Source: Myxococcales bacterium 68-20 (GTDB lineage: Bacteria; Myxococcota_A; Polyangia; Polyangiales; Polyangiaceae). From it: a stretch of DNA of 64,000 nucleotides. A model generated the notes under the pieces. It was given only the letters and a program-made list of their open reading frames with translations. It was not told the origin of the DNA and made no database searches. The DNA lies in assembly GCA_001899635.1 (NCBI GenBank), contig MKVQ01000048.1:248001-312000 (forward strand), given 5' to 3'. This document shows positions 40,907 through 60,955 of this stretch, piece after piece; position 1 is the stretch's first letter, and each line of letters starts with the position of its first letter. The translations under genes and the position numbers were made by a program.

Positions 40907-42040
40907 ATGAACGAGCCGGTCCGTCGGTTGCCGTTGCCTCACCACGATCGCGCAGAACGAGCCCGCGGCTTCGCGGAAGCGCTTGGCGCTGCCAAGGGGA
41001 AGCATCTGCTCATCGCCCTCCGCGGGCATCCTGATCCCGACGGGATCGCGTCCGCGTTGGCACAGGCCCACATCGCGCAGCGGCTCGGCGTCGCGAAGAC
41101 GACCATCAGCTACTGCCACGAGCTCAGCCATCGCGAGAACCGCGCGCTCGTCAAGCTTCTCAACGTCGAGATGAAGAAGCTGAAGAACGTGCACGACCTC
41201 GCCGAGCCGGCGGACTTCGTCGGCCTCGTCGACGCGCACGATGTCGACCCGGAGATGATCGGCGTCGATCAGATCGAGCCGCTCACCATCGTCGACCACC
41301 ACCGTGCGCATGCCCCGCCGCGCGCGCGCTTCGTCGACATGCGAAACGACGTCGGCGCGACCGCGACGATCTTCGTCGAGTACCTCCAGGAGCTGTGCCC
41401 GCTCTCGGCCGACAGTGACGACGATCGCCGGATCGCGACCGCGCTCATGCATGGCCTCGCGACGGACACGGACGACTTCTCGCTCGCGCGCACGACGGAC
41501 TTCCGCGCCGCCGCGCAGCTCGCCGACATCTGCGATCGCGATCTCCTCCAGGATCTTTCCCGTCGCCTCATCGCGCCGAGCGCGATGGACGTCATCGCTC
41601 GCGCGCTCGCGGCCCTCGTCGTGCGCCGCAACTTCGCCATGGCCGGCGTCGGCTTCGTCTCCGAGAGCGAACGCGACACGATCGCGCAGGCCGCCGACTT
41701 CCTGATCCGCCGCGAGGACATCGACACGGTCGTCGTCTACGGCATCGTCGGCGATCGCTTCATCGAAGGATCGCTCCGCACCCACTCGCCGAGCGTCGAT
41801 CCGGCGGTATGGCTCGAGCAGGCGTTCGGTCACGACGAGCGCGGCAAGGCATACGGCGGTGGACGACGGGACAAGGGCGGCTTCCGCATCCCGATCGGCT
41901 TCCTCGGACGCGCCACCGATCGCGCCCAGCTCTGGGCGCTCGTCGAACACGCCGCACGCCAGGCGCTCCTGAAGCAGCTCGGCGAGGAGCCGCTGCCTTC
42001 GCTCGGGACGCAGGGCGGTATCCCTTCGAACGCCAGCTGA
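40907..42040 (+). CDS. DHH/DHHA1 phosphoesterase, NrnA-like (oligoribonuclease/PAP phosphatase)
   Basis: 377 residues; ATG 40907, preceded by AGGAG. DHH catalytic motifs: HPDPDGIASALA (His41, Asp43, Asp45), LVDAHD (Asp109) and VDHH (130-132), with GLATDTDDFS. The C-terminal DHHA1 domain ends with KAYGGGRRDKGGFRIPIGF, the Gly-rich substrate loop. NrnA enzymes degrade nanoRNA and 3'-phosphoadenosine 5'-phosphate; some family members cleave cyclic dinucleotides, so specificity is open. Followed 20 bases later by a formyltransferase-fold gene. Confidence 0.9.
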   Translation: MNEPVRRLPLPHHDRAERARGFAEALGAAKGKHLLIALRGHPDPDGIASALAQAHIAQRLGVAKTTISYCHELSHRENRALVKLLNVEMKKLKNVHDLAEPADFVGLVDAHDVDPEMIGVDQIEPLTIVDHHRAHAPPRARFVDMRNDVGATATIFVEYLQELCPLSADSDDDRRIATALMHGLATDTDDFSLARTTDFRAAAQLADICDRDLLQDLSRRLIAPSAMDVIARALAALVVRRNFAMAGVGFVSESERDTIAQAADFLIRREDIDTVVVYGIVGDRFIEGSLRTHSPSVDPAVWLEQAFGHDERGKAYGGGRRDKGGFRIPIGFLGRATDRAQLWALVEHAARQALLKQLGEEPLPSLGTQGGIPSNAS

Positions 42041-42060
42041 TCCCGGCGCCTGCGAACGAC

Positions 42061-42951
42061 ATGCGCATCGCGTTCGTGGGTCTGCCGCTGGCGGCGCTCC
42101 TCCTCGCGCAGGACGGACACACCATCGTGTGGGCGGGGATCTGCCGCCGCGACGCGATCGGCACGCGACGGCTGAAGAAGCTGCTCGGTGACGACCGCGT
42201 CGTGGTCGTCCCCGATCTCGCGAAGAGCGCTCGCGCGATCCGCGCTGCAAAGCCGGATCTGATCGTGAGCTGGTTCTGGACGAAGAACATCCCCCGCTCG
42301 GTCCGCGAAGCCGCGCCGCTCGGGGCGTTCGGGGTTCATCCCTCCCTCCTGCCGCGCCACCGTGGCCCCGATCCGACCTTCTGGGCGATCGACTCGGGAG
42401 ATCGCGAGACGGGCGTCACCGCTCACATGCTCGAAGACGAGTACGACACCGGTGCAATCCTCGGGCAGAAGCGCATCGCGATCGATCCTTCGTGGAGCGC
42501 GTGGCGGCTCGCGAAGAAGCTCGATCGGCCGTCGCTCGCGCTCCTCCGCGAGACGGCCCTTGCCTACGCACGCGGCGAGCCGCCGACCCCACGCGGACAA
42601 GACGAGGCGCTCGCGACCGAAGCGCCAGCACCGGAGGACGAGCTGCTCGAGATCCGCTGGGCGGATCCAGCCGAGAAGATCGCGCGACGCGTCCGGGCCG
42701 CGAGCCCGTGGCCGGGAGCCTTCACCGAGGTGGCAGGCACGGTGGTCACCCTCACGAGCGCACGAGCCACGGACGACGTCCCGCGCGCGCTCGACCAGGG
42801 CGAGGCGTGCGTGCGCGGCGACGGCGTGGTGGTGGTCCGCGCGGGCGACGGCGGGGTGGAGCTCCTCGCCGGCCGGATCGAATACGACGATGCCGAGCGC
42901 GAGCTCGACGCGAACGCGCTCGCCGACCTCGTCCGCGCCACCGCGCACTGA
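42061..42951 (+). CDS. Formyltransferase-fold protein related to Met-tRNA formyltransferase
   Basis: 296 residues; ATG 42061 fits the family start (MRIAFVG). Has the family's HPSLLPRHRGPDPTFWAI motif with His93, ETGVTAHML and YDTGAIL with Asp129, plus an Fmt-like C-terminal segment (ASPWPGAF). The N-terminal nucleotide-binding part is shortened compared with Fmt. The usual catalytic Asn two residues before His93 is Gly91 (GVH instead of NxH), so formyl transfer may be altered or lost. Co-transcribed with the DHH gene. Role unknown. Confidence 0.75.
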   Translation: MRIAFVGLPLAALLLAQDGHTIVWAGICRRDAIGTRRLKKLLGDDRVVVVPDLAKSARAIRAAKPDLIVSWFWTKNIPRSVREAAPLGAFGVHPSLLPRHRGPDPTFWAIDSGDRETGVTAHMLEDEYDTGAILGQKRIAIDPSWSAWRLAKKLDRPSLALLRETALAYARGEPPTPRGQDEALATEAPAPEDELLEIRWADPAEKIARRVRAASPWPGAFTEVAGTVVTLTSARATDDVPRALDQGEACVRGDGVVVVRAGDGGVELLAGRIEYDDAERELDANALADLVRATAH

Positions 42952-43810: not shown

Positions 43811-44146
43811 CCAGCACCAGCTCACTGCGAAGCGCATGCCGATCGAAGGAGGCCTGGCTGAGAGCGCGGCGACGCGCGAATGCCGGTCGCGTCTGTCGTC
43901 CTGATGGGACGAATGTGCACCTCGTGTCGCACCTCGCCGCGCTCGAGGCGTGACCATGCGCCGCGGCGGAAGGTCTTCCTTGGGACACCGGGCCCCCGCC
44001 CATCCGCAGAGGAGGGCCCTCGGATGGCGTCGATTTTCCCGAGCGAAACGGACCGACGAAAGCGGTGTTTGTTTCGACCATACCGGTTCGCCTACGATGC
44101 GGTCGCGGCGCCTGCGGCGCACGCGAACCCCAGCTTCGAGGCGACA
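43811..44146. other. Divergent gap, no gene seen
   Basis: 336 bases between the BON gene and the PilZ gene, which point away from each other; promoters for both should lie here but no clear elements were recognised. The PilZ frame could be extended upstream to ATG 44024, adding a basic low-complexity N-terminus; judged less likely. Confidence 0.4.
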
Positions 44147-45319
44147 GTGAGCGATCCTCTTTCGACGTCACGCACGGCACGCGAGTCGCTCGCGCGCGGA
44201 CTCAATGCACTGCAGGCTGACCCGAGCGTACCGAGCCACCTCGTCGACCTTGCGGCCCCGATCGCGCAGGCGATGGGTGCACTCCACCAGCTCGAGCGAA
44301 CGAACCAGCTCACGCCTCATGCGGACGTCGCGCTGAACCACGTCCGAGGTGCGCTCGCGCAGCTCCAGGCTGCACCGGCGAACCACCCCGCAGTCAACGC
44401 AGCGCTCGAGTCCGTCGCGAAGTCGCTCTCGCTCGTGCACTCGCTGAGCCGCATGGCGAACGGTCCGGCTCCCGCTCCGCAACACGCCGCGCCCGCGCCT
44501 GCTCCGCAACACGCCGCGCCCGCGCCTGCTCCGCAACACGCCGCGCCCGCGCCTGCTCCTGCTCCGCACCACCCCGCGCCTGCGCCCGCTCCGCACCAAG
44601 CCGCGCCTGCACCTGCTCCGCAACCGGCGCCCGCGCCTGCTCCGCAACCGGCGCCCGCGCCCCAGGCGCTCAACGTGACCGCGGGGATGCCGGGCCAGAA
44701 CGCGGGGGCTTCACCTCGCGGCGGGACCGCCGGCATGGCCGCGCAGGCTCCTGCAGCGGGAGCGCAGCCGTCGTTTCCCCAGGCGCAGCCTGCTGGAGCG
44801 CCCGGCGGCTACGGGGCAGCGAACGTTGCGCGCGATCCGTTCGCGGCTCCCGATCCCTTCGCCTCTCCTCCGCCGGGAGTCGGACCGACCGGGGCACATC
44901 CGCAGGCACCTCCCGCGGGCGCACATCCCGGCGCAGTGAGCGGCAAGGCTGCGACGCCGAGCATGCCCGTCCCGGCTCCGCCCGCCGTCGGCAACATGCA
45001 GGTCATCGCGGCCGACCTCGGAGCGCACAGCCCGACCAACTTCTACAAGGGCCTCTCGGGCAACGACATCATCGATCACGGCGGCCTCTTCGTCTCGACG
45101 TACGTCGCGCCGAAGATCGGCACGCCGGTCCGGCTCAGGGTGTCGCTGCCGGGCGGCTACGAGTTCGAGGCGAACGCCGTCGTGAAGTGGACGCGCGATC
45201 TCGGCGGAGACGCGCTTCCTGGCTTCGGCGCGCAGTTCACGGCGATCACGCCCGAGGCACGCCAGCTCGTCTATCGCTACGTGCGCAACCGAGAGCCGAT
45301 CTTCCACGACGATCTCTGA
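44147..45319 (+). CDS. PilZ-domain protein with Pro/Ala-repeat linker
   Basis: 390 residues from GTG 44147 (ATG at 44024 would add 41 residues). Residues ~1-105 are helical. A repeated APAPQHA linker (~107-175), then a Pro/Gly/Ala-rich region to ~285. The last ~105 residues are a PilZ-like domain of the myxobacterial type (NDIIDHGGLFVSTY, LRVSLPGGYEFEANAVVKW, GFGAQF). The N-terminal Arg pair (RxxxR) that contacts cyclic-di-GMP is not visible, so it may be a non-binding member that acts as an adaptor. Cytoplasmic. Confidence 0.85.
   Translation: MSDPLSTSRTARESLARGLNALQADPSVPSHLVDLAAPIAQAMGALHQLERTNQLTPHADVALNHVRGALAQLQAAPANHPAVNAALESVAKSLSLVHSLSRMANGPAPAPQHAAPAPAPQHAAPAPAPQHAAPAPAPAPHHPAPAPAPHQAAPAPAPQPAPAPAPQPAPAPQALNVTAGMPGQNAGASPRGGTAGMAAQAPAAGAQPSFPQAQPAGAPGGYGAANVARDPFAAPDPFASPPPGVGPTGAHPQAPPAGAHPGAVSGKAATPSMPVPAPPAVGNMQVIAADLGAHSPTNFYKGLSGNDIIDHGGLFVSTYVAPKIGTPVRLRVSLPGGYEFEANAVVKWTRDLGGDALPGFGAQFTAITPEARQLVYRYVRNREPIFHDDL
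44474..44660 (+). repeat. 27-bp tandem repeat coding APQHAAPAP
   Basis: Three near-identical 27-base units begin at 44474, 44501 and 44528, followed by four degenerating units that keep the Pro/Ala rhythm to about 44660. In frame, so it shortens or lengthens the linker of the PilZ protein without breaking it. Confidence 0.8.
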
Positions 45320-45530: not shown

Positions 45531-45592
45531 CCACCGTGCGGGGTGACGACGTCCTGAGGACCAGGGCGCCCCCGGCCGTGGGAGGCATTCAC

Positions 45593-46723: not shown

Positions 46724-46875
46724 GCTCGCTCGCGGCCACGGTCTTAGGCTACGTGTTCGGGGTGGCCGAGGAGAACGCCCCGGCGGATGGGAGTGGTTCG
46801 CGCACCGCCACGGTGCTAAATGCGGCGGAGCCCTCCACGGGAGAAGACGATCCCGCTCCGGAACGACGAGAGCCG

Positions 46876-47643: not shown

Positions 47644-47683
47644 GCCCGCGCGAAGCATTGAGGCTCCGCGCTCACGCCCGGCC

Positions 47684-48460
47684 TCACGTCACCGCTGCGC
47701 GCTCGCGGCAGAGCGTTCGCGGATCGTCCGTCATCACGCCGTCCGCTCCCATCGCGAACAGGCGAGCCGCCTCCGCCGGCTCGTCGATCGTCCAGAAGTC
47801 GACGCGCAGCCCGAGCGCATGGAGGCGGTCGATCGCGGCCTGACTGGCGAACACGATGCCGTACGCCCGGCGGGGGACCTGGGCCGCGTGGCCGCTCACG
47901 CGCAGCCAGCGGAGCGCCGCGCGCGGCACGAACATAATGCGCGCGATCTCGTTGGCCGAGAGCCCCGTCTCGCCCGGGTAGCCGAGCCTTCGTGTCCGCA
48001 CCAGGTTCTTCGTGGAGAAGCTCGCGATGCGGACCCGGTCCTCTGCACGTGCTCGCCGAATCGTGCGGAGCAGCGCCGGGATCATGTCCGGCGATGTCTG
48101 CTTTGCGTCGACGTTGAACATCGCATCCGGGAACGCGTCGAGCGCCGCGTCGAGCGTCGGCATCTTGAAGCGCTGCCCCGCGCGGAAGATGCCGGGGCGG
48201 CGCGGAACGAAGAGCGCGCCGACGTCCCAGGCGCGGATCTCGGCGAGCGTCGCGTCCGCGATCGCGCGCTTCACTCCGGCGGCGCGCTCGCCCGTCGGAT
48301 CGTGCGAGAGGACTACGGCCCCGTCACGCGTCATGTGCGCGTCCGTCTCGATCGCATCCGCGCCGAGGTCGAGCGCGAGCTGGAACGCCTCGAGCGTGTT
48401 CTCCGGCAACTCGAAGCTCGCACCGCGATGCGCGTAGATGATGGGCGACAGGCGAGACAT
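47684..48460 (-). CDS. Glycerophosphodiester phosphodiesterase
   Basis: 258 residues from ATG 48460. Hydrolyses glycerophosphodiesters to sn-glycerol-3-phosphate and alcohol. GDPD motifs: [17 protein letters not shown] (His11, Arg12, Glu20), [21 protein letters not shown] (Glu38, Asp40, His53), FNVDAK, and the C-terminal VDFWTID and [10 protein letters not shown]. No signal peptide, so cytoplasmic like UgpQ. Convergent with MerR; 41 bases lie between the stops. Could supply glycerol phosphate and phosphate from lipid turnover. Confidence 0.95.
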
Positions 48461-48523
48461 GACGAGAAGCTACCTCGGCACGATCGCGGGCGCCCGCCGA
48501 AACGCGGCTGGGGCGCAGACGCC

Positions 48524-49087
48524 TCAGGCGGAGTGGTGCCGGGACTCGAGCTCGAGCAGGAGTCGCTTGTTCTCGATCCCGCCCGCATAGCCCGTGAGCG
48601 TCCCGTCCCGACCGATCACGCGGTGGCACGGGACCACGATCGAGAGCGGGTTGCGCCCGTTCGCCGCGCCCACGGCGCGGATCGCAAGCGGCTTCCCGAT
48701 CGCGCGCGCGATCTCCGCGTACGTGGTCGTCTCGCCGTAGGGGATGGCAGTGAGGGCGCGCCATACCGCACGCTGGAAGTCCGTCCCTCGCGGCGCGAGC
48801 TCGAGATCGAACGACGTCCGGGTTCCGTCGAAATAGGCGCGGAGCTGCGCGACGACGGACGCGAACGCGGGCTCGTCCTCGTGCGCCTCGGCGATCGCCC
48901 CCACCGCGTGCGCCGCTCGCTCGAAGTAGATCCCGTGGAGCACGACCTGCGATGCGCGAACCTCACCGAGGAGGAGGAGATCGCCGACGGGCGTCGCCAT
49001 CCGCGCGAAGGATCGCCGGAACGGCACCACCTCGACGGATCGTTTGCTCGAGGTACCCACGTTGCCTCGTTCGGTGCTCATCATCAT
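48524..49087 (-). CDS. ogt: Methylated-DNA-protein-cysteine methyltransferase
   Basis: 187 residues; the first of three successive ATGs (49087, 49084, 49081), with GGAG five bases before. It removes alkyl groups from O6-alkylguanine onto its own Cys154 in the motif IVVPCHRVIG, a one-use repair. The helix-turn-helix (AIPYGETTTYAEIARAIG) and RAVGAANGRNPL arm are complete. The start overlaps the stop of the Ada-AlkA gene (ATGA), so both repair functions are made together. Confidence 0.96.
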   Translation of the reverse strand: MMMSTERGNVGTSSKRSVEVVPFRRSFARMATPVGDLLLLGEVRASQVVLHGIYFERAAHAVGAIAEAHEDEPAFASVVAQLRAYFDGTRTSFDLELAPRGTDFQRAVWRALTAIPYGETTTYAEIARAIGKPLAIRAVGAANGRNPLSIVVPCHRVIGRDGTLTGYAGGIENKRLLLELESRHHSA

Positions 49088-50544
49088 CCCGTCTCCTCCG
49101 AGAGTCCCGACCAGAGATGCGCAGCGGCATAGGCACGCCACGGCCGCCACCGCTCGGCTCGCGCTTCACACTCCGCCGTCGACACTCCGCCGAGGGCCTT
49201 CCGCAGGCCGAGATCGCCCGAGGGGAAAGCGTCCGGCCAGCCGAGAGCGCGCATCTCGATGTACTCCGCCGTCCAAGGACCGATCCCCGGCAACGCGAGC
49301 AGGGCCTCACGCGTCGCCACCGGATCGGCTGTGCGATCGAGCGTGACCTTTCCGTCGGCGACCGCACGAGCGAGCTCGCGAACGGTGCGCGCGCGCGAGC
49401 GGGTGAGCCCGATCGACCCGATCGCCTCCTCGCTCGCGTCCGCGAGCCGGGGTGCGTCCGGCCAGGCCCACGCCGGCGCGCCCTCCCGGGTGGGTCCCTT
49501 CACCGGCACGCCGAGCTTCGCAACGAGGCGGCCCGCGATCGTCAGCGCGGCACGCACACTGACCTGCTGCCCGAGCACTGCGCGCACGGCCCACTCGAAC
49601 GGGTCGAACGCGCCCATCACCCGCTGCGCCGGCCGAGCCCGCACGCGCTTCTCGAGCAGCGGATCGCGCGCGAGGTGTGCGCCGATCAACGTCGGGTCCG
49701 CATCGGAGTCGAAGACTCGACGCACGCGCGCGGCGATCGTCATGAGCGACGGCGCGAGCGAGGAAGACACCTCCACGACGATCGCGTCACGCCCCTTCGC
49801 GGGTGTGACGGCGACGATGCCCGTGTGCCCGTTCATCAGCGTGGCGCGCAGATAGGTGTCGCCCGAGAACGCCTCTGCTCCCTCGACCGCGCGCGCTCGA
49901 AGGAACGAGAACGCGAGCGAAGCGTCGAACGGTGCCCGCGCGTCGAGCACGACGCGAAGCTCATCGCCGGCGGACACACCGGACGCGCCCGGGCGCCGGA
50001 CCTCCGAGGGCGTCATCCGCTGATGCGCTCGATAGGCGTCGTTGAAGCGCCGCACGCTTGCGAAGCCGCTCGCAAACGCGATCTCGGCGATCGGCAGCGT
50101 CGTCCCGAACAGGAGCTCGCGCGCGAGCGCGACCCGCTTCGAGAGCCCGAGCTCGAGCGGCCCCAGCCCGAGCTCGTCCTGCATGGCCCGGCGGAGGTGG
50201 CGCGCGGAGGTGCCCAGCGAAGACGCCAGGTCCTCCACGCTCCCGTCGTTCAACGCGCCCTCGTCGATCTTTCGCAGGGCGGTCGCGACGAGCCGCGAGA
50301 CAGCGTCCACGCTCGCATGCCCGGGCGCCCGCTCCGGCCGGCAGCGAAAGCACGCCCGGAACCCCGCGCGCTCCGCAAGCGCTGCCCGTGGAAAGAACTC
50401 GCAGCGGTCGCGCCGCGGCGTCCGCGCGCGACACACCGGGCGGCAATACACGCCGGTCGTCTTCACACCGACGAAGAACGCTCCGTCGAAGCGGGCATCG
50501 TGCGCGACGAGAGCGCGGTAGCAGGCGTCGGGGTCGAGCGTCAC
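49084..50544 (-). CDS. AdaA-AlkA fusion: methylphosphotriester sensor plus 3-methyladenine DNA glycosylase
   Basis: 486 residues from ATG 50544. Residues 1-75: Ada zinc domain with Cys34, Cys38, Cys65 and Cys68, which take methyl from phosphotriesters. ~85-185: AraC-type helix-turn-helix (LLFGTTLPIAEIAFASGFAS). ~195-300: AlkA N-terminal domain. 300-480: HhH-GPD glycosylase, with hairpin ALPGIGPWTAEYI (~417-428) and catalytic Asp444 (PSGDLGLRKAL). It excises N3-methyladenine and senses alkylation to activate its operon. Overlaps ogt by ATGA. The fusion is known in several bacteria. Confidence 0.95.
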   Translation of the reverse strand: MTLDPDACYRALVAHDARFDGAFFVGVKTTGVYCRPVCRARTPRRDRCEFFPRAALAERAGFRACFRCRPERAPGHASVDAVSRLVATALRKIDEGALNDGSVEDLASSLGTSARHLRRAMQDELGLGPLELGLSKRVALARELLFGTTLPIAEIAFASGFASVRRFNDAYRAHQRMTPSEVRRPGASGVSAGDELRVVLDARAPFDASLAFSFLRARAVEGAEAFSGDTYLRATLMNGHTGIVAVTPAKGRDAIVVEVSSSLAPSLMTIAARVRRVFDSDADPTLIGAHLARDPLLEKRVRARPAQRVMGAFDPFEWAVRAVLGQQVSVRAALTIAGRLVAKLGVPVKGPTREGAPAWAWPDAPRLADASEEAIGSIGLTRSRARTVRELARAVADGKVTLDRTADPVATREALLALPGIGPWTAEYIEMRALGWPDAFPSGDLGLRKALGGVSTAECEARAERWRPWRAYAAAHLWSGLSEETG

Positions 50545-50782
50545 GCCCCTCTCTTAGCGTCGGAGCGGGCGCCCGTCTGGCCGTTTTCGGACATGGCAGC
50601 AACGCCGCGCCCGAGCCGAGGCCGGCCATCTCAGCCGGGAACCGGACGGGAGCACGAAGCGAGGCCTGCCCCCCCGTTGCCCGACCTCTCCCGTTTTCCG
50701 GCCCACCCGCGCGGGTCCGCACGTGGGACGCAACTCTTCCGGCGCCCGGCCGACGGGGGAGGACACCAAACGGGAGGGCGCG

Positions 50783-51556
50783 ATGAGCGAAGTGGGTGGA
50801 GTGGGGGCGCGGCGGCACTTCTCGACAGACGAGGAGGAGGCGCTCCGGCGCGACGAGTCGACGAACAGCATCGTCAAGCGTGACGCCAAGACGAACGTGA
50901 ACATCTCCGGGACCGATCTCTCGTGGGTTGCCACCAAGCACCATCAGCAGAGCCCGATGGACAACAAGATGACCGTGCTCGACGTCGGCCACGTCGCGTT
51001 CGAGGGGCTCGAGATCGCAGGTGTCATCCACCTCGGCGCGGCGGGACCGATCGGCGGAATGCTGGTTGGAATCGCCCTTGGTTCGTATGGACTCGTAGAG
51101 GCGCATGCGAAAGGGGATGAGCAGGCCCAGGCGCTCGCAAAGGACAACGCGCACGTCGCCCTGATCGGTGCGCTCGATCTGCCGGAGTCCTACAAGGCGG
51201 CGCGCCTCGACGGCGAGTACAAGCACGTCGCGAAGGGGAACGGCTCTCCCGCGTTCAAGATGGCAGAGGCCATTTGCCAGGACAAGAAGGGGCTCGCCAC
51301 GCTCCAGCTCCATGCCGATCGCGGGATGAACGCTGCACGCGACCTCTCGTATTCGGGGATGACGAAGGATGCGTTCCTGAAAGCGAATCCGAAGATCGCC
51401 GAGAGCTACAAGAACGATGCCGCGTTCCATGAGGGCTTCGATGCGTACCTCCATGCGAAGGCGCACCTCCCGCCCGCCGAGATGAAAGACTTCGAGAAGA
51501 AGCTGAGCGAGCGAGACGGATGGTACACGCAGAGCCAGGTAAGCTTCCGCGTATGA
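50783..51556 (+). CDS. Uncharacterised protein with glycine-rich hydrophobic segment
   Basis: 257 residues; ATG 50783 after GGGAGGGC. The N-terminal ~60 residues are polar; ~85-120 form a hydrophobic, Gly-rich stretch (IHLGAAGPIGGMLVGIALG) likely to enter a membrane. The rest is a charged helical domain with KDNAHVALIGALDLPESYKA and an MKDFEKKLSERDGWY end. No signal peptide. No family recognised. Couples tightly to the next gene (its stop and a weak alternative ATG overlap), so they probably form an operon. Confidence 0.75.
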   Translation: MSEVGGVGARRHFSTDEEEALRRDESTNSIVKRDAKTNVNISGTDLSWVATKHHQQSPMDNKMTVLDVGHVAFEGLEIAGVIHLGAAGPIGGMLVGIALGSYGLVEAHAKGDEQAQALAKDNAHVALIGALDLPESYKAARLDGEYKHVAKGNGSPAFKMAEAICQDKKGLATLQLHADRGMNAARDLSYSGMTKDAFLKANPKIAESYKNDAAFHEGFDAYLHAKAHLPPAEMKDFEKKLSERDGWYTQSQVSFRV

Positions 51557-51579
51557 GGGGCGAGAAGGAGGAGCCGCCG

Positions 51580-52041
51580 ATGGCGACGCCGTACCGATCT
51601 GCCGGCGTGCGCGTCGAAGGCCCGCGCCCACTCGAGCCGGAAGACGAGATGAGGCTTCTGCTCGAGGCCCCCGTGTGGCCTCGAGGTGCTCGCAAGGCGG
51701 TGGTGATCGGCCTGGCGCTCATGGGCGTGGCGTTGGTGGCCGTCAGTCTGAGCTCGACGGACCACACGCTCTTCCGCCCCGTGGTCCACGCGTGCCTCTT
51801 CCTCACGCCGCTGGTGTCCTTGCTCTCGGCGGAGCTGAAACATCGGCGGCGTGTGGCGAAGCTTCGTGCAGCCGGCTACGACGTCGAAGGCGCGGCGACC
51901 GCTCACCTCCGCGTCGCCGACGCCCCTCTCATTCGCGTCGCCGCCGAGCCGGTCACCGAGAGCATCGACGACGAATGCGCCCTGGACGAGCACGGGCGCG
52001 ACGACGAGACGACGTCCTCCAAGGCCGCAGCGAGGCGGTAG
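51580..52041 (+). CDS. Two-helix membrane protein, unknown
   Basis: 153 residues. ATG 51580 is preferred because AAGGAGG lies eight bases before; an ATG at 51553 overlapping the previous stop would add nine residues. Two transmembrane helices (~40-58, and ~67-87 with ACLFLTPLVSLLSAEL), then a basic HRRRVAK and an acidic cytoplasmic tail. No motif. Partner of the upstream gene; possibly a small membrane complex. Confidence 0.72.
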   Translation: MATPYRSAGVRVEGPRPLEPEDEMRLLLEAPVWPRGARKAVVIGLALMGVALVAVSLSSTDHTLFRPVVHACLFLTPLVSLLSAELKHRRRVAKLRAAGYDVEGAATAHLRVADAPLIRVAAEPVTESIDDECALDEHGRDDETTSSKAAARR

Positions 52042-52596
52042 CGGGAAGTCGCCCCCCAACGGCCAGAACGACGGCGGCCCGACTACGAAGAGCAGCACAT
52101 CGCGCTGACGAAACGGTCGTGGCCGAAGATGGCGGCCCATTGCTCCAGTAGCGGACACGCTCGGACGGCGTTGGCGAGTCGGCGAGGCCTCGCGAGCAGT
52201 TCGTAGACACGCGCCCGGAAGCCGATGAGTGAGCTACATCAACCCGCCGCGGCGGCGGGGGCCTTACGCAGACCGCCTCCGATGATAACGCGCCCGGAGC
52301 TCATCGGGAGCGCCTCACGCCGAACGCCTTGAACGCGATCCGCTGACTGTTGCTCGCCGGCCAGGGCCGCGGGATTCGTCGAGCCTGCGCACCGGCGAAG
52401 GGCGACGGCACGCGCTCATCCTCCGCTTCGCCCACTCCGGGGGTCGATCTCGCGTGGGGCCGAGCCCCCGCTAGTGATGGGCGCAGCAACCGTTCCCGTG
52501 CGTCGTCTGGTCGCCAGCTGGGACGAGGTCGTCTCACATGATCGCGAGAGCATCGTTGACGCGGAGGGGCGCGTGGCGCGATGGTCACGATGACTC
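52042..52596. other. Intergenic stretch, no gene supported
   Basis: 555 bases of lower coding character. A 38-codon frame from ATG 52479 (MGAATVPVRRLVASWDEVVS) stops just before the exonuclease start. A minus-strand frame ends in RVIIGGGLRKAPAAAAG near 52230. Both lack supporting features and may be remnants. Confidence 0.4.
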
Positions 52597-53208
52597 ATGA
52601 CGCTAGAGCGGCTCGACACCGGTGGTTCCGCCGGACCGCGTGACGTGTACTTCTCGGTCGACGTCGAGACGGACGGCCCCATCCCCGGCGAGTTCTCGAT
52701 GCTGAGCTTCGCGCTCGTCTACGCCGGCAGTTACGACGGCACGTCGTTCGAAGCGCCGGCACGCTACGACACGTTCTTCGAGAGAACGCTCAGGCCCATC
52801 TCGGAACGGTACGAGCAAGAGGCGCTCGACGTGAACGGACTCGATCGGAGCGCGCTCGTGGAGAGCGGAGGCGATCCTTCACGTGTCATGGCAGAAGCTG
52901 CGGCGTGGCTCGAGCAGCACTCCGGAGGTGGGACGCCGATCCTCGTCGCGTATCCGCTGAGCTTCGACTGGACGTGGCTCTACTGGTACTTCGTGCGCTT
53001 TCTCGGAACGTCCCCGTTCAAGCACTCGCGGTGTCTCGACCTGAAGACCGCGATCGCGATTCGAGGCCGGCGCACGGTGTCAGCCTCGGGCCATGACCAA
53101 CTTCCGCCGGCGCTTCGCTCGGCGTTGCCTCACACCCATCGCGCGCTCGATGACGCGATCGAGCAGGCAGACATTCTCGCGAAGCTCTTCACCTGGGATG
53201 GCACATGA
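52597..53208 (+). CDS. DEDDh-family 3'-5' exonuclease
   Basis: 203 residues from ATG 52597. Nuclease motifs: VDVETDG with Asp22 and Glu24 (after YFS), Asp124 (LSFDWTWLYW), and HRALDDA with His181 and Asp186. These are the metal-binding DEDDh residues of RNase T/oligoribonuclease/Rv2179c-like enzymes. The protein is short and lacks extra domains. It overlaps the nucleotidyltransferase stop-to-start (ATGA), so the two are made in step. Substrate may be RNA 3' ends; see the next gene. Confidence 0.88.
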   Translation: MTLERLDTGGSAGPRDVYFSVDVETDGPIPGEFSMLSFALVYAGSYDGTSFEAPARYDTFFERTLRPISERYEQEALDVNGLDRSALVESGGDPSRVMAEAAAWLEQHSGGGTPILVAYPLSFDWTWLYWYFVRFLGTSPFKHSRCLDLKTAIAIRGRRTVSASGHDQLPPALRSALPHTHRALDDAIEQADILAKLFTWDGT

Positions 53209-54212
53209 CGTCGTTCGACACGCGCGCAACGAGCACGCAAACCACTCTCGATGAGCTCGCGAAGCAGCTCTTGGACAACCTGGGTGCCGACGCGGAGCGC
53301 ATCCTCCGCAACGACACGAGCATCTACGTCGTAGGCTCCGGTGGTCGCGGCGAGATGTCGGAGCACAGCGACGTCGACCTCTTCGTCGCGCGCGTCGGAC
53401 GCTCCACCTCCGACGTGGACGCGTTCCTCGTGCGCCAAGCGATTGCGCGAACCCTGTACGCCATGAAGCGGCCGGATCCGTCTCAGGGCGGCGCCTTTCT
53501 GAAGATGCACACGGACGCGAGCCTGTGCGATCGCATGGGCACGGCCGAAGACGACGCCGAGAACACGTTCACCGCCCGCATGCTTCTTCTCCTCGAGAGC
53601 CAGGCGCTTCTCGGAGAGGCCGCCTACGCCGAGCTGCTCGATAGGGTGCTCGAGGCGTACTGGAAGGACGCGGCGACACACGCGAGCGACTATCACCCCT
53701 ACGTCCTCGTCAACGACGTCGTTCGCTACTGGCGCAGTCTCCTCCTCAACTACGTCGCGAAGAACGCGAAGAAGGCAAAGGAGCTCCGCGCTCCCGAGCG
53801 CCGCCATGGAGAGCGGGAGCTCCGAAGCTACAAGCTTCGGTTCAGCCGCTGCCTCAGCTGCTTCTCGGTGCTCGCGTCGCTTCTCGTCCTGACCGGCAGA
53901 GGTGGCGTGCGCAAGGACGACGTACGCGCCCTCGTGCGAAGACGTCCGATCGAGCGCCTTCGCGACATCGGCGAAGCGCGTGCAGGCACCGAGGCCGCCG
54001 CGTACGTCGACAAGCTTCTCGCGTTGTACGACGGCTTTCTGACGACGACCAACGCGCCGACGAAGGACCTCGAAGCCAAGTTCGGTGAGATCGAGTTCAC
54101 GAAGGCAAAGCTCGACGAGGGGTACGCCTTCGGCGACGCGATGTTCGACCTGCTCCAGGTGCTCGGCCGCGAAGGGCGCGCGCGCAACCTGTTCCGCTAC
54201 ATGGTCGTTTAG
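53205..54212 (+). CDS. Nucleotidyltransferase (DUF294/GlnD-type fold)
   Basis: 335 residues; ATG 53205 overlaps the exonuclease stop. Nucleotidyltransferase motif: VVGSGGRGEMSEHSDVDLFV, giving the GG-loop (44-50) and metal Asp56/Asp58. The rest is mostly helical (VLNDVVRYWRSLL, LLLLESQALLG), as in DUF294-linked transferases and the catalytic core of GlnD. No ACT or cyclic-nucleotide domain is present. It would transfer a nucleotide to protein or RNA. A partner that removes 3' nucleotides suggests an editing or modification pair; not proved. Confidence 0.83.
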   Translation: MTSFDTRATSTQTTLDELAKQLLDNLGADAERILRNDTSIYVVGSGGRGEMSEHSDVDLFVARVGRSTSDVDAFLVRQAIARTLYAMKRPDPSQGGAFLKMHTDASLCDRMGTAEDDAENTFTARMLLLLESQALLGEAAYAELLDRVLEAYWKDAATHASDYHPYVLVNDVVRYWRSLLLNYVAKNAKKAKELRAPERRHGERELRSYKLRFSRCLSCFSVLASLLVLTGRGGVRKDDVRALVRRRPIERLRDIGEARAGTEAAAYVDKLLALYDGFLTTTNAPTKDLEAKFGEIEFTKAKLDEGYAFGDAMFDLLQVLGREGRARNLFRYMVV

Positions 54213-54257
54213 TCCCGCCAGCGCGGCTCGGCGGCAGCGAGCACGCACTCGTGGACG

Positions 54258-54752
54258 TCACCTGCGAGTGTTCAATCGCGCCCTCTCCTTCGAGCTCGAG
54301 CGGGGCGGCTGCCTGGACTGACCGATTGGCTGCGTGGCGCGTTCTCCGTGCGGGACGCGGCGGCTGAGCGCGCGCGGAACCACTCGGCGATCCCCCCATG
54401 TGCGGCTCGAAGTCTCCGGGCACCGAGAGCTTGAGCGCCCCCGCCCGCTCGGCCGTGCGGTTCTCGAAGTCGTGCGCCGTGCCTCCGGGCGCGGCGCGTC
54501 GATCCACGTGCCGCCTACGAAGAACCTCATCGTCCCCTCGATCACGAAGAAGACGTCGTCTTCCTCGTGTGTGTGCGCGCCGGGGCCGCGCGTGTAGGGC
54601 TCGATCCACCACTCCGAGATCGAGTACCGCCCGCGCGTCTCGTCGCCGTCCGCCTTGAAGACGGCGTGCAGCGGGCCCATCGCATACGCGCGGCCTGCGC
54701 CCGGAGGCAGATTGATCGGAGCACGCGTCTTCTCGCGCGGTACGCACGGCAT
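54258..54752 (-). pseudogene. Cupin-domain protein, frameshifted
   Basis: ATG 54752 starts MPCVPREKTRAPINLPPGAG, and the frame runs through the cupin motif 1 HTHEEDDVFFVIEGTM and FFVGGTWIDA. Motif 2 then continues only in another frame (PGGTAHDFENRTAERAGALK), and the tail (HMGGIAEWF) in the third. Two frameshifts thus break a ~150-residue cupin. Unless sequencing error is involved, it is a pseudogene. Cupins bind a metal and act as dioxygenases or isomerases. Confidence 0.7.
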
Positions 54753-54779
54753 GTTCACCGCTCTGTGATTCGACCGCAA

Positions 54780-54824
54780 GCGCCGACGAGCGCCGACGAG
54801 CGCCGACGAGCGCCGACGAGCGCC
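54780..54824 (+). repeat. 10-bp tandem repeat
   Basis: Four and a half copies of GCGCCGACGA in a row, just before the broken cupin start, between the cupin and the transposase gene. Confidence 0.9.
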
Positions 54825-54908
54825 TTCGCGGCCACGCGATCATCGCGAAAATCTGGTGGAGCGTTCCGCTCTGGTAGAGCGCGCACCGAGCGGTGTGCAG
54901 CGTCGGCC

Positions 54909-55643
54909 TCAGCGCACCACAGCACGACGACGAGGTCCTGGCACATCTTCGGTATGGATGAGGCCGTGCCGCTTCCAGCCCGTACCGAGAAGCCAGGTGC
55001 GCGGCCTGACCTGCGTCCATGGCTCGGGCTCTTCGAACCAATCGAACAGCGCATCGCTCCAGCCGTCGAAGTGCTGGGCCGACGAGTAGTAGTCGAAGGC
55101 CCCCGCTCCGAAGGTCACATGACCGTGCTTGCGAAAGTTGTTCATCACGTAGCGCAGCGAGGTCTTCACCTCGTGCGGGCTCTCGAGGTCATGGCGGTGG
55201 TACCGGTCGTCCCAGACCTTGCCCTTACGTCCGAGCAGCTTGTTGAGGCGACGCGCGAACGAGATGAGGAAGCCGCTCACGCCCGAGCGCAGCGCGTTTC
55301 GTGAGCGAGTGGCCGGTGTCTTCGTCGGTCCGTCGTCCGCCTCGAGGATGACGTGGAGGTGGTTGGTCTGGATCGAGAAGTGGACGATCCGGAAGTTGTC
55401 CTTGTACGCCCGCTCACGCTGATCGCGGAGTACCTGGAGAACGAGCGCGTGAACGAGCTGCTGCCGAAATGAAGGCAACCCATGACGTGCGCGCAGGGTC
55501 ACGTGCACGGGATGCCGCCCCTTGTGAACCGGACGCGCTCGGTGCGGCACGCGCCCGAACGCACGAAGCTTCGGACCGCGCCGCCGAGGACGCTCCACCC
55601 GAGGAAGCTCCAGCTGTCGAGACGTACGCCCGCCCCCTGACAT
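54909..55643 (-). CDS. REP-associated tyrosine transposase (RAYT, IS200-like Y1 fold)
   Basis: 244 residues; ATG at 55643. The Y1 transposase core is recognised by VHFSIQTNHLHVILEA (His95, His97: the HuH pair) and SLRYVMNNFRK with Tyr165 as the nucleophile. GRKGKVWDDRYHRHDLESP matches RAYT proteins. Full length and frame intact. Its N-terminal codons are themselves one copy of the nearby repeat (55601-55632), and the repeat array lies upstream. RAYTs cut single-stranded repeat palindromes and mobilise REP sequences, so it is likely the maker of the array. Confidence 0.88.
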   Translation of the reverse strand: MSGGGRTSRQLELPRVERPRRRGPKLRAFGRVPHRARPVHKGRHPVHVTLRARHGLPSFRQQLVHALVLQVLRDQRERAYKDNFRIVHFSIQTNHLHVILEADDGPTKTPATRSRNALRSGVSGFLISFARRLNKLLGRKGKVWDDRYHRHDLESPHEVKTSLRYVMNNFRKHGHVTFGAGAFDYYSSAQHFDGWSDALFDWFEEPEPWTQVRPRTWLLGTGWKRHGLIHTEDVPGPRRRAVVR

Positions 55644-56830
55644 GTCACTCCCCCGAACGCGCCCCATCCGCGCGGCCCGCACTTCGCCCCGATCCAGCCA
55701 GCCCCCGCGCCCGCGCCATCGCTGCGAGGCGCGAGAATGATTGTAGCCCTGATTCGTCGGGCGGCAACGTCGCCGGCATCGGAAGACGCGCGACCGTTCC
55801 AACTGTGCGCGCCTCCCGACGCTACACCTCCACCAACCGCGGCACGCGAGGCACGCGAGGCACGCGAGGCACGCGAGGCACGCGAGGCACGCGAGGCACG
55901 CGAGGCACGCGAGGCACGCGCAGCACGCGAGGCACGCGAGGCACGCGCAGCACGCGAGGCACGCGAGGCACGCGGCGCACGCGGCGCACGCGGCGCACGC
56001 GGCGCACGCGGCGCACGCGGCGCACGCGGCGCACGCGGCGCGAAGATTGTAGCCCTGATTCCTCGGTGCCACGTCCCCGGTACCGGAAGGCCTTCACCAC
56101 GAGGCAGTCCAACCGTCCGGGTTCATCAGGGGGACGTCGCGAGTGCAGACGCGCCCCCCCAAGGAAGCTCCGGTGGTCGAGATGTGCGCTCGATCGCCAA
56201 CGCGAAAGCTCACCACCGCGCACGCGCGGCACGACGAGAGAGAGATTGTAGCCCTGAGTCCTTGGTGCCACGGCCCCGGTACCGGGAAGGCGCTCCACAC
56301 GAGGCAGTCCGTCCGGCAACGACCGATTCATCAGGGCGCGACGTCGCCAACGCAGCCCCGCCCCCCGGAGGAAGCTTCAGCTGTCGAGACGTGGGCTCGA
56401 CCGGTTGGCGCACGCCTGGATCGAGCCGAACGAGAACGCGTCCAGCTACGGCTGTGGGGGCAGGCTGGGCACTCGTACGCGTGGATGTCGACGGCGAGCA
56501 CGCGACACGCATTCCGGGCTGGAGGCGCAATTGGTCGGCGTGCGGGACTGCTCCCCGACGCGACACCTCCGCCAACCACGCGGCACGAGGCGAGAAGGAT
56601 TGTAGCCCTGATTCCTCGGTGCCACGTCGGCACGTCCCCCGAAGGCGCTCCACACGCAGCAGGCCATCTGTCCCGGCAACGCTCGACTCATCAGCGAGCG
56701 ACGTCGCCGCCGCAGACGCGCCCCCCGAGGCAGCTTCAGCTGTCGAGACGTGCGCTCGATCCCCAGCGCGGCACGCGCGACGCGACACGAGAAGGCTGAT
56801 TCCTCGGTGCCACGTCGCCAGTACGAAAGG
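55601..56830 (+). repeat. Array of ~150-350-bp repeat modules around RAYT
   Basis: A module seen 4-5 times. Element A (GATTGTAGCCCTGATTC, then CTCGGTGCCACGT...CGGTACCGGAAGG) begins near 55739, 56045, 56244, 56598 and, truncated, 56797. Element R (GAGGAAGCTTCAGCTGTCGA, then GACGTG) begins at 55601, 56161, 56368 and 56727. Between A and R lie CACGAGGCAGTCC and ATTCATCAGGGCGACGTCGC. Within A, GGTGCC...GGTACC can pair as a 6-bp hairpin. Stops differ between frames and copies, so it is not protein coding. The module overlaps the transposase N-terminus. Confidence 0.8.
55842..56039 (+). repeat. 22-copy 9-bp tandem repeat (GCACGCGxx)
   Basis: Exactly 22 units of 9 bases: eight GCACGCGAG, one GCACGCGCA, two GAG, one GCA, two GAG, then eight GCACGCGGC. 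It grew from a single copy of the same motif (CGCGGCACGCGAG) that precedes element A of the array elsewhere. A blocky order of variants indicates stepwise slippage. All six frames are open through it, which creates spurious Ala/Cys or Arg/Glu/Ala frames. Confidence 0.92.
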
Positions 56831-57030
56831 CGCCCCCGACGCAGTCGAGCGGTCAGACAGCAACCTCGCCAGTACCGGAAGGCGCCACACCACGACGGCT
56901 CCAATCGTCGAGCCATCGCTCGCTCCCAGCCGCGCTCGGCTCGCCGGTACCGAGCTCGGCCCGGCCGAGGCTGAGCTCGTGCGCCAGAGGAGCGTCCGGA
57001 CGCGGTGGGATCGGGTTATAGTCCGCGGCG

Positions 57031-57966
57031 ATGAAGCCCCTGTACGAGCGCCTCTTCCCGCGCTTCCGACCGAAGCGTGAGCTCAGGCCTCAGGGCAGCG
57101 GCGTGGGCTGGGGGGCGCGGATCTCGTGGCTTGGCACCGCGGGCTTCATCATCGAGTCGCGCGAGGCGACGGTCCTCATCGACCCGTTCGTCACGCGGCC
57201 CGGGCTGCCCGGCATCGTGAAGCCGTTCGTGCCGGACGAGGCCGCGATCGCGCGCTACGTCCTCGGGAACGGGCGCCGGTCGATCGACGCCATCCTCTGC
57301 GGACACAGCCACTACGACCACGTCGCCGACGCGCCGCGGATCGCGAAGCTCGCGAAGGCGAAGCTCGTGGGCTCCGCGTCGACGTGCGCCTGGGGGCGCG
57401 CGGAGGGCCTCTCCGAGGACCAGCTCGTGCGGATCCCTCCGGCGGGCGCCGTCGTTCGCTTCGGGGACATCGAGGTGCGCTTCGTCGCGAGCCGTCACGG
57501 GCGGATCGCCTTCGGGCGCGTTCCCTTCCCCGGCGAGGTGCGCGCGACGCCGAGCGCGCCGAAGCGCATCTGGCACTACCGAATGGGCGGCGCGTTCGGA
57601 CTCTTGATCCGCGCGCCGGGGGTCAGCATCTATCACAACGGCAGCGCCGACCTCGTCGACGCCGAGCTCGAAGGAGAGCAGGCCGATGTCCTCCTCGCGT
57701 GCCTCGCCGGGCGCAAGGGCACCGAGAACTACGTCGGCCGACTCGTCTCTGCGCTGTCGCCCAAGCTCGTCGTGCCGACACACCACGACGCTTTCTTCGC
57801 GCCGCTCGAGCGCGGACTTCACTTGCTCCCCGGCATCGACGTCGAGGGCTTCGTCTCCGAGGTCTTCACGCGGGTCCCGGACGCCGCCGTGATCACGCCG
57901 GACTACGAAGAGCCGATCTGTGTTCCCCCCGGGGATGCGCGCGGATCGGTCCTCGCCGAAGGGTGA
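57031..57966 (+). CDS. Metallo-beta-lactamase-fold hydrolase (UlaG-like)
   Basis: 311 residues from ATG 57031. MBL signature CGHSHYDHVAD (His92, His94, Asp96, His97), a WLGTAGFIIE start, FVASRHG (His of motif 3), a YHNGSADL segment and VPTHHDAFF late in the chain. Of the UlaG/phospholipase-like type that hydrolyses esters or lactones with zinc or manganese. No signal peptide is evident. The next gene follows 4 bases later, so an operon with the gluzincin-propeller-barrel protein is clear. Confidence 0.88.
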   Translation: MKPLYERLFPRFRPKRELRPQGSGVGWGARISWLGTAGFIIESREATVLIDPFVTRPGLPGIVKPFVPDEAAIARYVLGNGRRSIDAILCGHSHYDHVADAPRIAKLAKAKLVGSASTCAWGRAEGLSEDQLVRIPPAGAVVRFGDIEVRFVASRHGRIAFGRVPFPGEVRATPSAPKRIWHYRMGGAFGLLIRAPGVSIYHNGSADLVDAELEGEQADVLLACLAGRKGTENYVGRLVSALSPKLVVPTHHDAFFAPLERGLHLLPGIDVEGFVSEVFTRVPDAAVITPDYEEPICVPPGDARGSVLAEG

Positions 57967-57970
57967 GTCG

Positions 57971-60955
57971 ATGCGAGGGGTGGTCGTGCGAGGTTTGCTC
58001 GCGGCGCTCGTCGCCCTGATCGCGCTCGCGCTTCCTCCGGGGCGCCGCGCGGAGGCGGCGTTCGATCCCGCGCTCCGCTTCTACACGATCGAGACCGAGC
58101 ACTTCCGGGTCACGTACCACACGGGGCTCGAGCAGGTCGCGCAGCACGTCGCGAACACCTGCGAGAGCATCCACGCCAACATGACCGAGGCGATGGGGTA
58201 CACGCCGACGAAGGACAAGACGGAGGTCGTCCTCACCGACACCTCGGAGAGCGCGAACGGCTCTGCGACGGCGCTCCCGTACAACGCGATCCGCCTCCTC
58301 GTCACTGCTCCCGAGGACTTCTCGCCGCTCGGCGACGTCGACGACTGGTTCCTCGAGCTCGTCACCCACGAGTACACGCACGTGCTCCACACCGATCACA
58401 TCCGCGGGATCCCCGCGCTCGTGAACACGGTGATCGGCAAGACGATGTCGCCGAACCAGATGCAGCCCCGATGGATCCTCGAGGGCTACGGCGTCTACTT
58501 CGAGAGCGCGCGCACGAGCGCCGGACGCCTCCGGAACTCGATGTGGGACATGTACATGCGGACGGACGTGCTCGACGACAACCTCGCGTCGCTCGATCAG
58601 ATCTCGAACGTCGTCCGGCGATGGCCGCAGGGCAACATCTTCTACCTCTACGGCTCGCACTTCATCCAGTGGATCGCCCGGACGTACGGTGAGAAGGCGC
58701 TTCGCCAGGTCACCTACGACTACGGCGGGCAGCTCATCCCCTGGGGCATCCAGCGCACGATCCGGCGCGTGACCGGCAAGACCTACGACGAGCTCTATCC
58801 GCTCTGGATCGAGAGCATGAAGCGCGAGTACGGCGCGCAGGCGGCCGAGGTGAGGCGCCGAGGGATCCGCGAGGGCACGCGCCTCACGCACCACGGGCAG
58901 GTCGCGCGCTACCCGCGCTGGATCCCGGACAACGCCTGGCCCGAGCACGCGGGCGGCCTCCTCTACTACCGCGACGATCAGCGTTACCGCGCCGGCCTCT
59001 TCGCGCTCGACGTCACGCGCGACGCGAGCGGGCGCGTGCTTCGCGCCGACGAGAAGGGCTCCGAGCTCGTCGCGCGCACGAACGTCGAGTCGTTCGCGAG
59101 CTTCCTCCCCGACGGCGGGCTCGTCTTCGGCGGCGCCGAGGTCTACCGGAACGTCTTCGTCTTCGGCGACCTCGAGCGGATGGAGCCGGGTCAGAAGAGC
59201 CCCTACGGCGCGCCTGACGGCCAGCGCGTTCAGCTCACCGCGCCCGCGATGCGCGCGGCCGATCCCACGACATCGCCCGACGGCCGTCGCGTCGTCTTCA
59301 CGCAGAACAAGGCGGGGACGCGCACGATCCACATCGGTGATCTCGAGCCCACCGGGGTATCGAACATCCGGCCGCTCGTACCGACCGCGTTCCTGGAGCA
59401 GTCGTTCACTCCGCGCTGGTCACCCGACGGGACGCACGTCGCCTATAGCGTCTGGAAGCGCGGCGGGTATCGCGACATCCGCTACGTCGACGTCAGGGAC
59501 GGCACCTCGCGCGAGATCACGAACGACCGCGCCGTCGACGGCTCGCCCTCGTTCTCCGCCGACGGCAAGTGGCTCTTCTTCCACTCCGACCGCACCGGCA
59601 TCATGAACGTGTTCGCGTACGAGCTCGCGACCGGCCGCCTGATGCAGGTCACGAACGTGCTCACCGGCGCGTATTCGCCCGAGCCGTCGCCCGACGGAAA
59701 GACGCTCGCGTACATCGGCTATGGGAAGAACGGCTTCGATCTCTACGCGATGCCGCTCGGCCCACTCGACGGGAGCACGTGGCTCGAAGCCCCGGAGTAC
59801 ATCGATACTCACCCGATCCCTCCGCCGGTCACGGATCGGCGCTGGGAGCCGAAGCCGTACAACCCTTGGCGCACGCTCCTCCCGCGTCGCTACGGCGTCC
59901 AGGTCACTCCCGGCAACTTCGGTCAGGCCGTCATCGTCACCGCCGCCGGCAGCGACATCGCCGGGCTCCATGGAGTCTCGGCGACCTCGACCGTCGAGCT
60001 CGAGAAGCCCCAGATCCAGGGCTCGCTCGCCTACTCGTATAGCGGGCTCCCGGTCGACTTCGGCGCCTCGGTGTTCCGCTCGATCACCCCTCGCGCGGGC
60101 TACGCGATCGGTCAGTACAAGCCGACGATCATCCAGGAGACGCTCGGTGTCACCACCTCGCTGAGCTACGCGCAGCCGAAGGCGTTCGACGGTCGAAGCT
60201 ACGTCGTCAGCCACACGGTCTCCCGCGTCGGCGCGAACCTGCCGATGCCCGCGGACAAGCTCGATCCCTACGAGACACCGAGCATCCCCGTGCGCGGACT
60301 CGCGAGCACGATGCACTTCGGCTACGCGTTCTCCAACGCCGAACGCTACCTGTGGAGCATCGGTCCAGAGCGCGGGTATGCGCTCAACCTGAACTTCGAC
60401 ATCACCGATCCGCTCCTCGGCAGCGATTTCGCCGGCTTCGCGACCAACGGAGACTTCACGACCTATTTCCTGATGCCGTGGCTGAAGCATCACTCCCTCG
60501 CGCTCCATGCCGGCGGCGGCACGAGCGGCGGGAGCTTCCCCGGACGCGGTGCGTTCTTCGTCGGCGGGTTCGTCGATCTCCCCGTCGTCGACATGGTCCG
60601 GAACGTCATGATCCAGGGCGGAATCACGCTCCGCGGATACGCACCGGTCGCCGTGGCCGGCCGAAGCTATGCGCTAGGCAATGCGGAGTACCGCTTCCCG
60701 ATCGTGAACATCGATCGCGGGCAGTCCACGCTCCCCGTCTTCCTCAACCGGATCAACGGCTCGCTGTTCGTCGACTACGGCAGCGCGTTCGACGTCTTTC
60801 GCGACGCGCGCTTCAAGACCGGCGTCGGCGGCGAGCTCTGGTTCGATACCCTGCTCGGCTACGTCGTCCCGTTCACCTTTCGCCTCGGATATGCGAAGGG
60901 CCTCGCGAGCCTCGGCATCGACAAGGTCTACTTCGTCGCCGCCGTGCCCTACTGA
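57971..60955 (+). CDS. Gluzincin-TolB propeller-outer-membrane barrel fusion
   Basis: 994 residues; ATG 57971 (GTGAGTCG before it). Signal peptide to ~30. Residues ~35-290: zinc metallopeptidase-like domain with THEYTHVLH (His133, Glu134, His137) and WILEGYGVYFE (Glu171) as the gluzincin triad. ~330-650: PD40/TolB-like blades (FTPRWSPDGTHVAYSVW, PSFSADGKWLFFHSD, PEPSPDGKTLAYIGYG). ~650-994: BamA/Omp85-like C-terminal strands with LYGSAFD-like and GVGGELWFDTLLGY segments, ending in PY. It would be an outer-membrane protease or assembly factor facing the periplasm. Catalytic residues are intact. Partner of the MBL enzyme. Confidence 0.87.
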   Translation: MRGVVVRGLLAALVALIALALPPGRRAEAAFDPALRFYTIETEHFRVTYHTGLEQVAQHVANTCESIHANMTEAMGYTPTKDKTEVVLTDTSESANGSATALPYNAIRLLVTAPEDFSPLGDVDDWFLELVTHEYTHVLHTDHIRGIPALVNTVIGKTMSPNQMQPRWILEGYGVYFESARTSAGRLRNSMWDMYMRTDVLDDNLASLDQISNVVRRWPQGNIFYLYGSHFIQWIARTYGEKALRQVTYDYGGQLIPWGIQRTIRRVTGKTYDELYPLWIESMKREYGAQAAEVRRRGIREGTRLTHHGQVARYPRWIPDNAWPEHAGGLLYYRDDQRYRAGLFALDVTRDASGRVLRADEKGSELVARTNVESFASFLPDGGLVFGGAEVYRNVFVFGDLERMEPGQKSPYGAPDGQRVQLTAPAMRAADPTTSPDGRRVVFTQNKAGTRTIHIGDLEPTGVSNIRPLVPTAFLEQSFTPRWSPDGTHVAYSVWKRGGYRDIRYVDVRDGTSREITNDRAVDGSPSFSADGKWLFFHSDRTGIMNVFAYELATGRLMQVTNVLTGAYSPEPSPDGKTLAYIGYGKNGFDLYAMPLGPLDGSTWLEAPEYIDTHPIPPPVTDRRWEPKPYNPWRTLLPRRYGVQVTPGNFGQAVIVTAAGSDIAGLHGVSATSTVELEKPQIQGSLAYSYSGLPVDFGASVFRSITPRAGYAIGQYKPTIIQETLGVTTSLSYAQPKAFDGRSYVVSHTVSRVGANLPMPADKLDPYETPSIPVRGLASTMHFGYAFSNAERYLWSIGPERGYALNLNFDITDPLLGSDFAGFATNGDFTTYFLMPWLKHHSLALHAGGGTSGGSFPGRGAFFVGGFVDLPVVDMVRNVMIQGGITLRGYAPVAVAGRSYALGNAEYRFPIVNIDRGQSTLPVFLNRINGSLFVDYGSAFDVFRDARFKTGVGGELWFDTLLGYVVPFTFRLGYAKGLASLGIDKVYFVAAVPY

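Follow-up and report, generated by a model that had tools for sequence, protein, structure and literature searches.

The stretch analysed here (the window) comprises 64,000 nucleotides of Myxococcales bacterium 68-20. Near its right-hand end lie two adjacent open reading frames on the forward strand, both found where an initial annotation had placed them (Table 1). The first encodes an MBL-fold hydrolase and the second, ending at 60955, a protein that we call Glz (gluzincin-propeller-Omp85 protein). At its full extent the Glz reading frame opens at a GTG at 57920, but the likely start is the ATG at 57971, upstream of which lies the Shine-Dalgarno sequence AAGGGTGAG; the stop codon of the MBL gene falls within AAGGGTGAG. 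Promoter and terminator scans found nothing. Glz is not a chance open reading frame, since 31 homologues (39-64% identity) align with it end to end with more than 80 invariant columns. Its closest named relative, at 84% identity, is from Labilithrix sp. ACE_MYX5, which points to a Labilithrix-like member of Myxococcota as the host.

Table 1. Genes, domains and motifs discussed in the text, with their positions in the window.
Feature	Position	Strand	Residues or size	Basis and remarks
Formyltransferase-like gene, upstream of PilZ	41809..42951	+		neighbourhood comparison; homology from 42061
PilZ-domain protein	43880..45319	+		neighbourhood comparison
MBL-fold hydrolase (UPF0173/UlaG-like, Lactamase_B_3)	57031..57966	+	311 aa	profile matches
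MBL metal motif HSHYDH	57304..57321	+	aa 92-97	orthologue alignment
Glz (from the likely start)	57971..60955	+	994 aa	
Glz predicted signal peptide	57971..58060	+	aa 1-30	AxA site near AEA, no lipobox Cys; helix 2-20 in model
Glz gluzincin peptidase domain	58061..58861	+	aa 31-297	fold matches of model
HEYTH zinc/catalytic motif	58367..58381	+	aa 133-137	H133, E134, H137 invariant
Putative third zinc ligand, in W-x-x-E-G...E, 34 residues past H137	58481..58483	+	E171	invariant
Y225-L-Y227, invariant helix, candidate oxyanion tyrosine	58643..58651	+	aa 225-227	invariance
TolB-like beta-propeller	58862..59800	+	aa 298-610	Pfam, model, structural match
Omp85-type 16-strand beta-barrel	59885..60952	+	aa 639-994	Pfam, model, structural match
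LRGY motif of L6 loop, Omp85 hallmark	60629..60640	+	aa 887-890	alignment and model

The initial annotation had described Glz as a single polypeptide that ends in an outer-membrane barrel and also has TolB-type blades and an intact HExxH...E site, and both the sequence and the structure model bear this out. An AlphaFold model built on 32 homologues (mean pLDDT 87, pTM 0.85) begins with a signal helix and an alpha/beta N-terminal domain, followed by a propeller and a barrel of exactly 16 strands, so that all three domains (peptidase, propeller and barrel) are backed by the model, which contains the zinc site as well as the barrel. Pfam recognizes four PD40 repeats (1.8e-17) and Omp85 (7.9e-9). 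The signal peptide is predicted from the sequence together with the modelled helix.

The N-terminal domain, when modelled alone (pLDDT 89), matches the folds of the M30 peptidase lugdulysin (Z 16.5), M1 aminopeptidases (about 15) and M9 collagenases (about 14.6). With an HExxH motif, a downstream Glu ligand and this matching fold, Glz belongs to the gluzincin clan MA(E). E171 would act as the third zinc ligand on the evidence of the fold match, and Y225 or Y227 may serve as the oxyanion tyrosine by precedent of families M1, M9 and M30. Families M30, M1, M9 and M61 share with Glz a common fold and the HExxH...E...Y arrangement, but none of them can be assigned to Glz at the sequence level: M30 and M9 are matched by fold without a sequence-level match, and the best Pfam peptidase match, M61, is sub-threshold (E 0.01, 16.7 bits versus a cut-off of 22). 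Among the 32 members of the alignment (31 homologues plus Glz), one matches M61 and one M48. The best PDB match of the peptidase profile, the uncharacterised 4l7a (E 0.014), was set aside.

Seven residues of the site do not vary in any of the 32 sequences (H133, E134, H137, E171, E178, Y225, Y227), and the HE..H...EG...E residues are also kept in 14 further, more distant Glz sequences from distant orders. The peptidase is the best-conserved domain of the protein, with 14.2% invariant columns across the 32 sequences versus 6.4% in the propeller and 6.7% in the barrel. Together these patterns argue for retained catalysis, as predicted from sequence conservation. The Glz sequence lacks GxMEN, the exopeptidase motif of M1, which makes an endopeptidase the more likely type of activity.

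The propeller has about six blades by strand count in the model. Its residues 298-576 superimpose on TolB with Z 25.9 (241 residues aligned, 2.3 A, VIA-align); the fold is common to both, but TolB is a soluble periplasmic protein without a peptidase or a barrel. It is plausible that in Glz the propeller is a tethered, putative substrate-binding part. Residues 639-994 match the BamA of Deinococcus (Z 23.3, 319 aligned, 4.2 A, VIA-align), and the 16 strands, at residues 640-991 of the model, form the C-terminal barrel expected of the Omp85 superfamily. Strands 11 and 12 of the barrel are separated by a long L6 segment, as they are in Omp85 proteins, and within it R888, G889 and Y890 are invariant in 32 sequences, in agreement with the Omp85 pattern (V/L/I)RG(F/Y); the barrel ends in an aromatic residue in 30 of the 32. 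No POTRA domain was matched in Glz with Pfam or NCBIfam families and the N-terminal part up to residue 610 is occupied by the peptidase and propeller, for which reasons Glz was not filed under the BamA, TamA or TpsB type. Its TolB-like propeller directly before the barrel corresponds to the WD40-Omp85 arrangement.

PF00149, which we take to be the calcineurin-type phosphoesterase family, is one enzyme domain that has been found on a barrel of this kind. In the 'Metallo' Omp85 subfamily an enzyme domain is attached to an Omp85 barrel, as in Glz, but the enzyme is PF00149 rather than a gluzincin and the main text of the source describes no propeller (PMC4104836). The same paper, by Heinz and Lithgow in 2014, defined the WD40-Omp85 subfamily and likened it to a BamA-BamB fusion; as its main text presents them, these proteins, like Glz, carry a TolB-like propeller N-terminal to an Omp85 barrel and lack any detected POTRA (PMC4104836). 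The main-text description mentions no gluzincin, whereas Glz has a conserved one at its N-terminus, and it reports the minor Omp85 subfamilies as conserved only at the genus level, whereas the distribution of Glz is phylum-wide (PMC4104836). Some published WD40-Omp85 members may belong to the Glz family. PlpD, a patatin-Omp85 protein, resembles Glz in bearing an N-terminal enzyme on an Omp85 barrel, but that enzyme is a patatin lipase, accompanied by one POTRA, and there is no propeller (PMC11116518). No description of the three-part gluzincin-propeller-Omp85 architecture was found in the open literature, most subscription papers lying outside the search. Nor did that open literature describe a gluzincin module or phylum-wide conservation for this Omp85 type; WD40-Omp85 itself has been known since 2014.

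Strong matches to Glz (E below 1e-50) occur in 38 of the 41 genomes of the host's family, and propeller-level matches only in two more, for a tally of 40. Across Myxococcota, 104 of 140 genomes match Glz at E 1e-40 or better. Most of these have one match; where there are two, each covers a different part of the protein, in several cases as fragments on separate contigs. Glz is essentially single-copy across most of the phylum. The host genome (an 11.9 Mb assembly) encodes one copy of Glz along with eleven further Omp85 matches, among them a full-length BamA-type protein. Outside Myxococcota, the plasmid collection that was searched yielded only a peptidase-propeller protein of Salinibacter ruber and propeller-only matches. 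The S. ruber protein, WP_118831798.1, shares the peptidase and propeller with Glz (23.5% identity over 60% of the query) but ends, after 633 aa, without a barrel. It is encoded on plasmid pSR116 (L157:5863-7764) and annotated as basic secretory protein-like.

The gene neighbourhood of Glz was compared over the best 80 loci, which are weighted to Polyangia. In most Polyangia the PilZ gene lies directly upstream of Glz; among the best 80 loci, 44 of the 68 with enough flank have a PilZ-domain gene within 1 kb upstream, and in 7 further loci of those 68 it is farther away and an MBL gene is present. In the window the two are about 12.6 kb apart, and the order formyltransferase, PilZ, Glz is kept. 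Likewise among the best 80 loci, a small putative lipoprotein follows Glz in 39 of 67, and FtsE is divergently oriented upstream in 25 of 48 with enough flank, usually accompanied by FtsX and an EnvC-like gene. The host's lipoprotein homologue is not adjacent to Glz and sits on another contig. In distant orders Glz lies next to frr-pyrH-tsf-rpsB and RNase E/G, and the PilZ protein found close by is a different one.

Several Polyangia loci (L078, L084, L090, L109 and L112, with others) display a conserved neighbourhood composed of EnvC-FtsX-FtsE, formyltransferase-PilZ-Glz-lipoprotein, thymidine kinase and a penicillin-binding protein; in the PilZ-like proteins of these loci the usual NxSxxG motif is replaced by DHGGLF. 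The roughly 12 kb that separates PilZ from the MBL/Glz pair in the window (45320-57030; the corresponding gap in locus L059 is about 5 kb) contains genes for a fatty-acid desaturase, a MerR regulator, GDPD, an Ada-AlkA fusion, an exonuclease-like protein and a nucleotidyltransferase. Positions 55574-56883 form a REP-like mosaic of 24-64 nt direct repeats spaced about 200 and 355 nt apart, GATTGTAGCCCTGATTCCTCGGTGCCACG being one example, in the midst of which (55841-56037) lies an array of about 22 copies of a 9-bp unit. The reading frame at 54909-56072 on the reverse strand, situated in this repeat region, has no Pfam match; by eye, its NHLHVIL stretch is like that of REP-associated (Y1-type) transposases, and it may be a decayed element.

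The MBL protein scores 71.9 bits against the UPF0173 equivalog (cut-off 144) and is a member of the Lactamase_B_3 family only. Most aligned members have HYDH or HFDH with the first His of the motif, and L066 has A-H-Y-D-H. At the fourth metal motif NGSADL replaces the usual GD in 11 of 11 aligned orthologues, which may alter the metal site. Since the protein has, as judged by eye, apparently no signal peptide, it would be cytoplasmic and away from an outer-membrane Glz. The initial annotation regarded this gene as coupled to Glz and as a possible partner, a view that proved mostly wrong. It adjoins Glz in 10 of the best 80, Polyangia-weighted loci, at a spacing of 8-140 bp in the loci measured; close MBL orthologues are present in 8 of the 41 family genomes and lie next to Glz in 6. 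On the Glz tree the pairing is confined to one clade of 21 rows and calls for 7 changes, at least 4 of them forced by well-supported branches. The gene order is therefore kept patchily inside that clade and is not conserved outside it. Clustered on the tree yet unstable, the pair is a local operon arrangement and not a conserved system; the adjacency counts and the patchy one-clade distribution rule out MBL as a general partner, and it is an accidental or clade-specific operon neighbour.

What Glz does may be read in several ways, and the one that we favour, with modest confidence that it is the right one, is that of a periplasmic, outer-membrane-anchored endopeptidase for the maturation, processing or quality control of envelope proteins. 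The periplasmic side, the catalysis and the substrates are what we infer. Omp85 proteins normally have their N-terminal part in the periplasm. In PlpD, the one enzyme-bearing case that has been tested, the N-terminal enzyme stays in the periplasm (PMC11116518), and by analogy with both, the peptidase and propeller of Glz would be periplasmic too. Glz would be secreted and then anchored in the outer membrane by its C-terminal 16-strand barrel, with the zinc endopeptidase and the propeller hanging in the periplasm. The propeller, placed between the catalytic domain and the barrel, would dock or position substrates or partners on the periplasmic face of the outer membrane, where the peptidase would cleave envelope proteins as a step in the maturation of outer-membrane proteins or lipoproteins or in their quality control. 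The lipoprotein and divergent FtsEX neighbours found among the best 80 loci count in favour of such an envelope protease. Against it, many proteases perform quality control without an Omp85 barrel, and the lipoprotein is not adjacent in the host's own genome. BepA, an M48 zinc peptidase that acts on BAM at the outer-membrane assembly site, offers a functional analogy only, as it is soluble, of another peptidase family and without a barrel (PMC8423444); Glz might build a role like that of BepA on BAM into one chain.

Alternatively, the barrel might export its own peptidase and propeller to the cell exterior in a type Vd-like manner, making Glz a surface protease for feeding or predation. Myxobacteria do secrete many hydrolases. 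PlpD was first read in this way, according to the main text of an earlier account (PMC4104836), but it proved periplasmic (PMC11116518), and near-universal single-copy conservation and housekeeping neighbours are unlike a variable predation enzyme, so that a surface protease seems unlikely. We similarly doubt that Glz is an assembly factor resembling a BamA and BamB fusion, with a peptidase fold that serves less as an enzyme than as a chaperone or clamp. The BamA-type barrel with its intact L6 RGY motif and the TolB/BamB-like propeller are consistent with this, as is Heinz and Lithgow's interpretation of WD40-Omp85 in their main text (PMC4104836); the invariance of all catalytic residues in what is the most conserved domain, the lack of any detected POTRA domain and the additional full-length BamA-type Omp85 in the host genome speak against it. 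A factor for cell division or peptidoglycan remodelling, working with FtsEX-EnvC at the septum, is suggested by the divergent FtsE-FtsX-EnvC genes and by a penicillin-binding protein downstream in many loci, but neighbourhood alone is weak evidence, the FtsEX linkage is lost in distant orders and absent in the window, and we consider this role improbable. Finally, despite the shared strand, the overlap of the MBL stop codon with the ribosome-binding site of Glz and the close spacing, the two-gene MBL-Glz system proposed at the outset is very hard to credit given its repeated loss or gain, and the case warns how a gene-pair story arose from a local neighbour.

As a single-copy protein retained in most of the phylum, Glz looks like an uncharacterised housekeeping cell-envelope protease, consistent with the outer-membrane-anchored endopeptidase that we favour. 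More tentatively, it is possible that Myxococcota possess, throughout the phylum and in single copy, an outer-membrane machine that unites an Omp85 barrel, a TolB-like propeller and an active gluzincin in one built-in protease. It might link proteolysis to the assembly of outer-membrane proteins or, as the FtsEX-EnvC neighbourhood hints, to constriction of the envelope at the septum, a role without an E. coli counterpart. The literature covered presents the Omp85 subfamilies that lack POTRA domains as uncharacterised, and Glz would be a tractable case for the function of WD40-Omp85 proteins, one catalytic-dead mutant being enough to separate an enzyme from an assembly factor. Its protease site is fully conserved, and the protein occurs almost throughout a large phylum that is noted for social and predatory behaviour.
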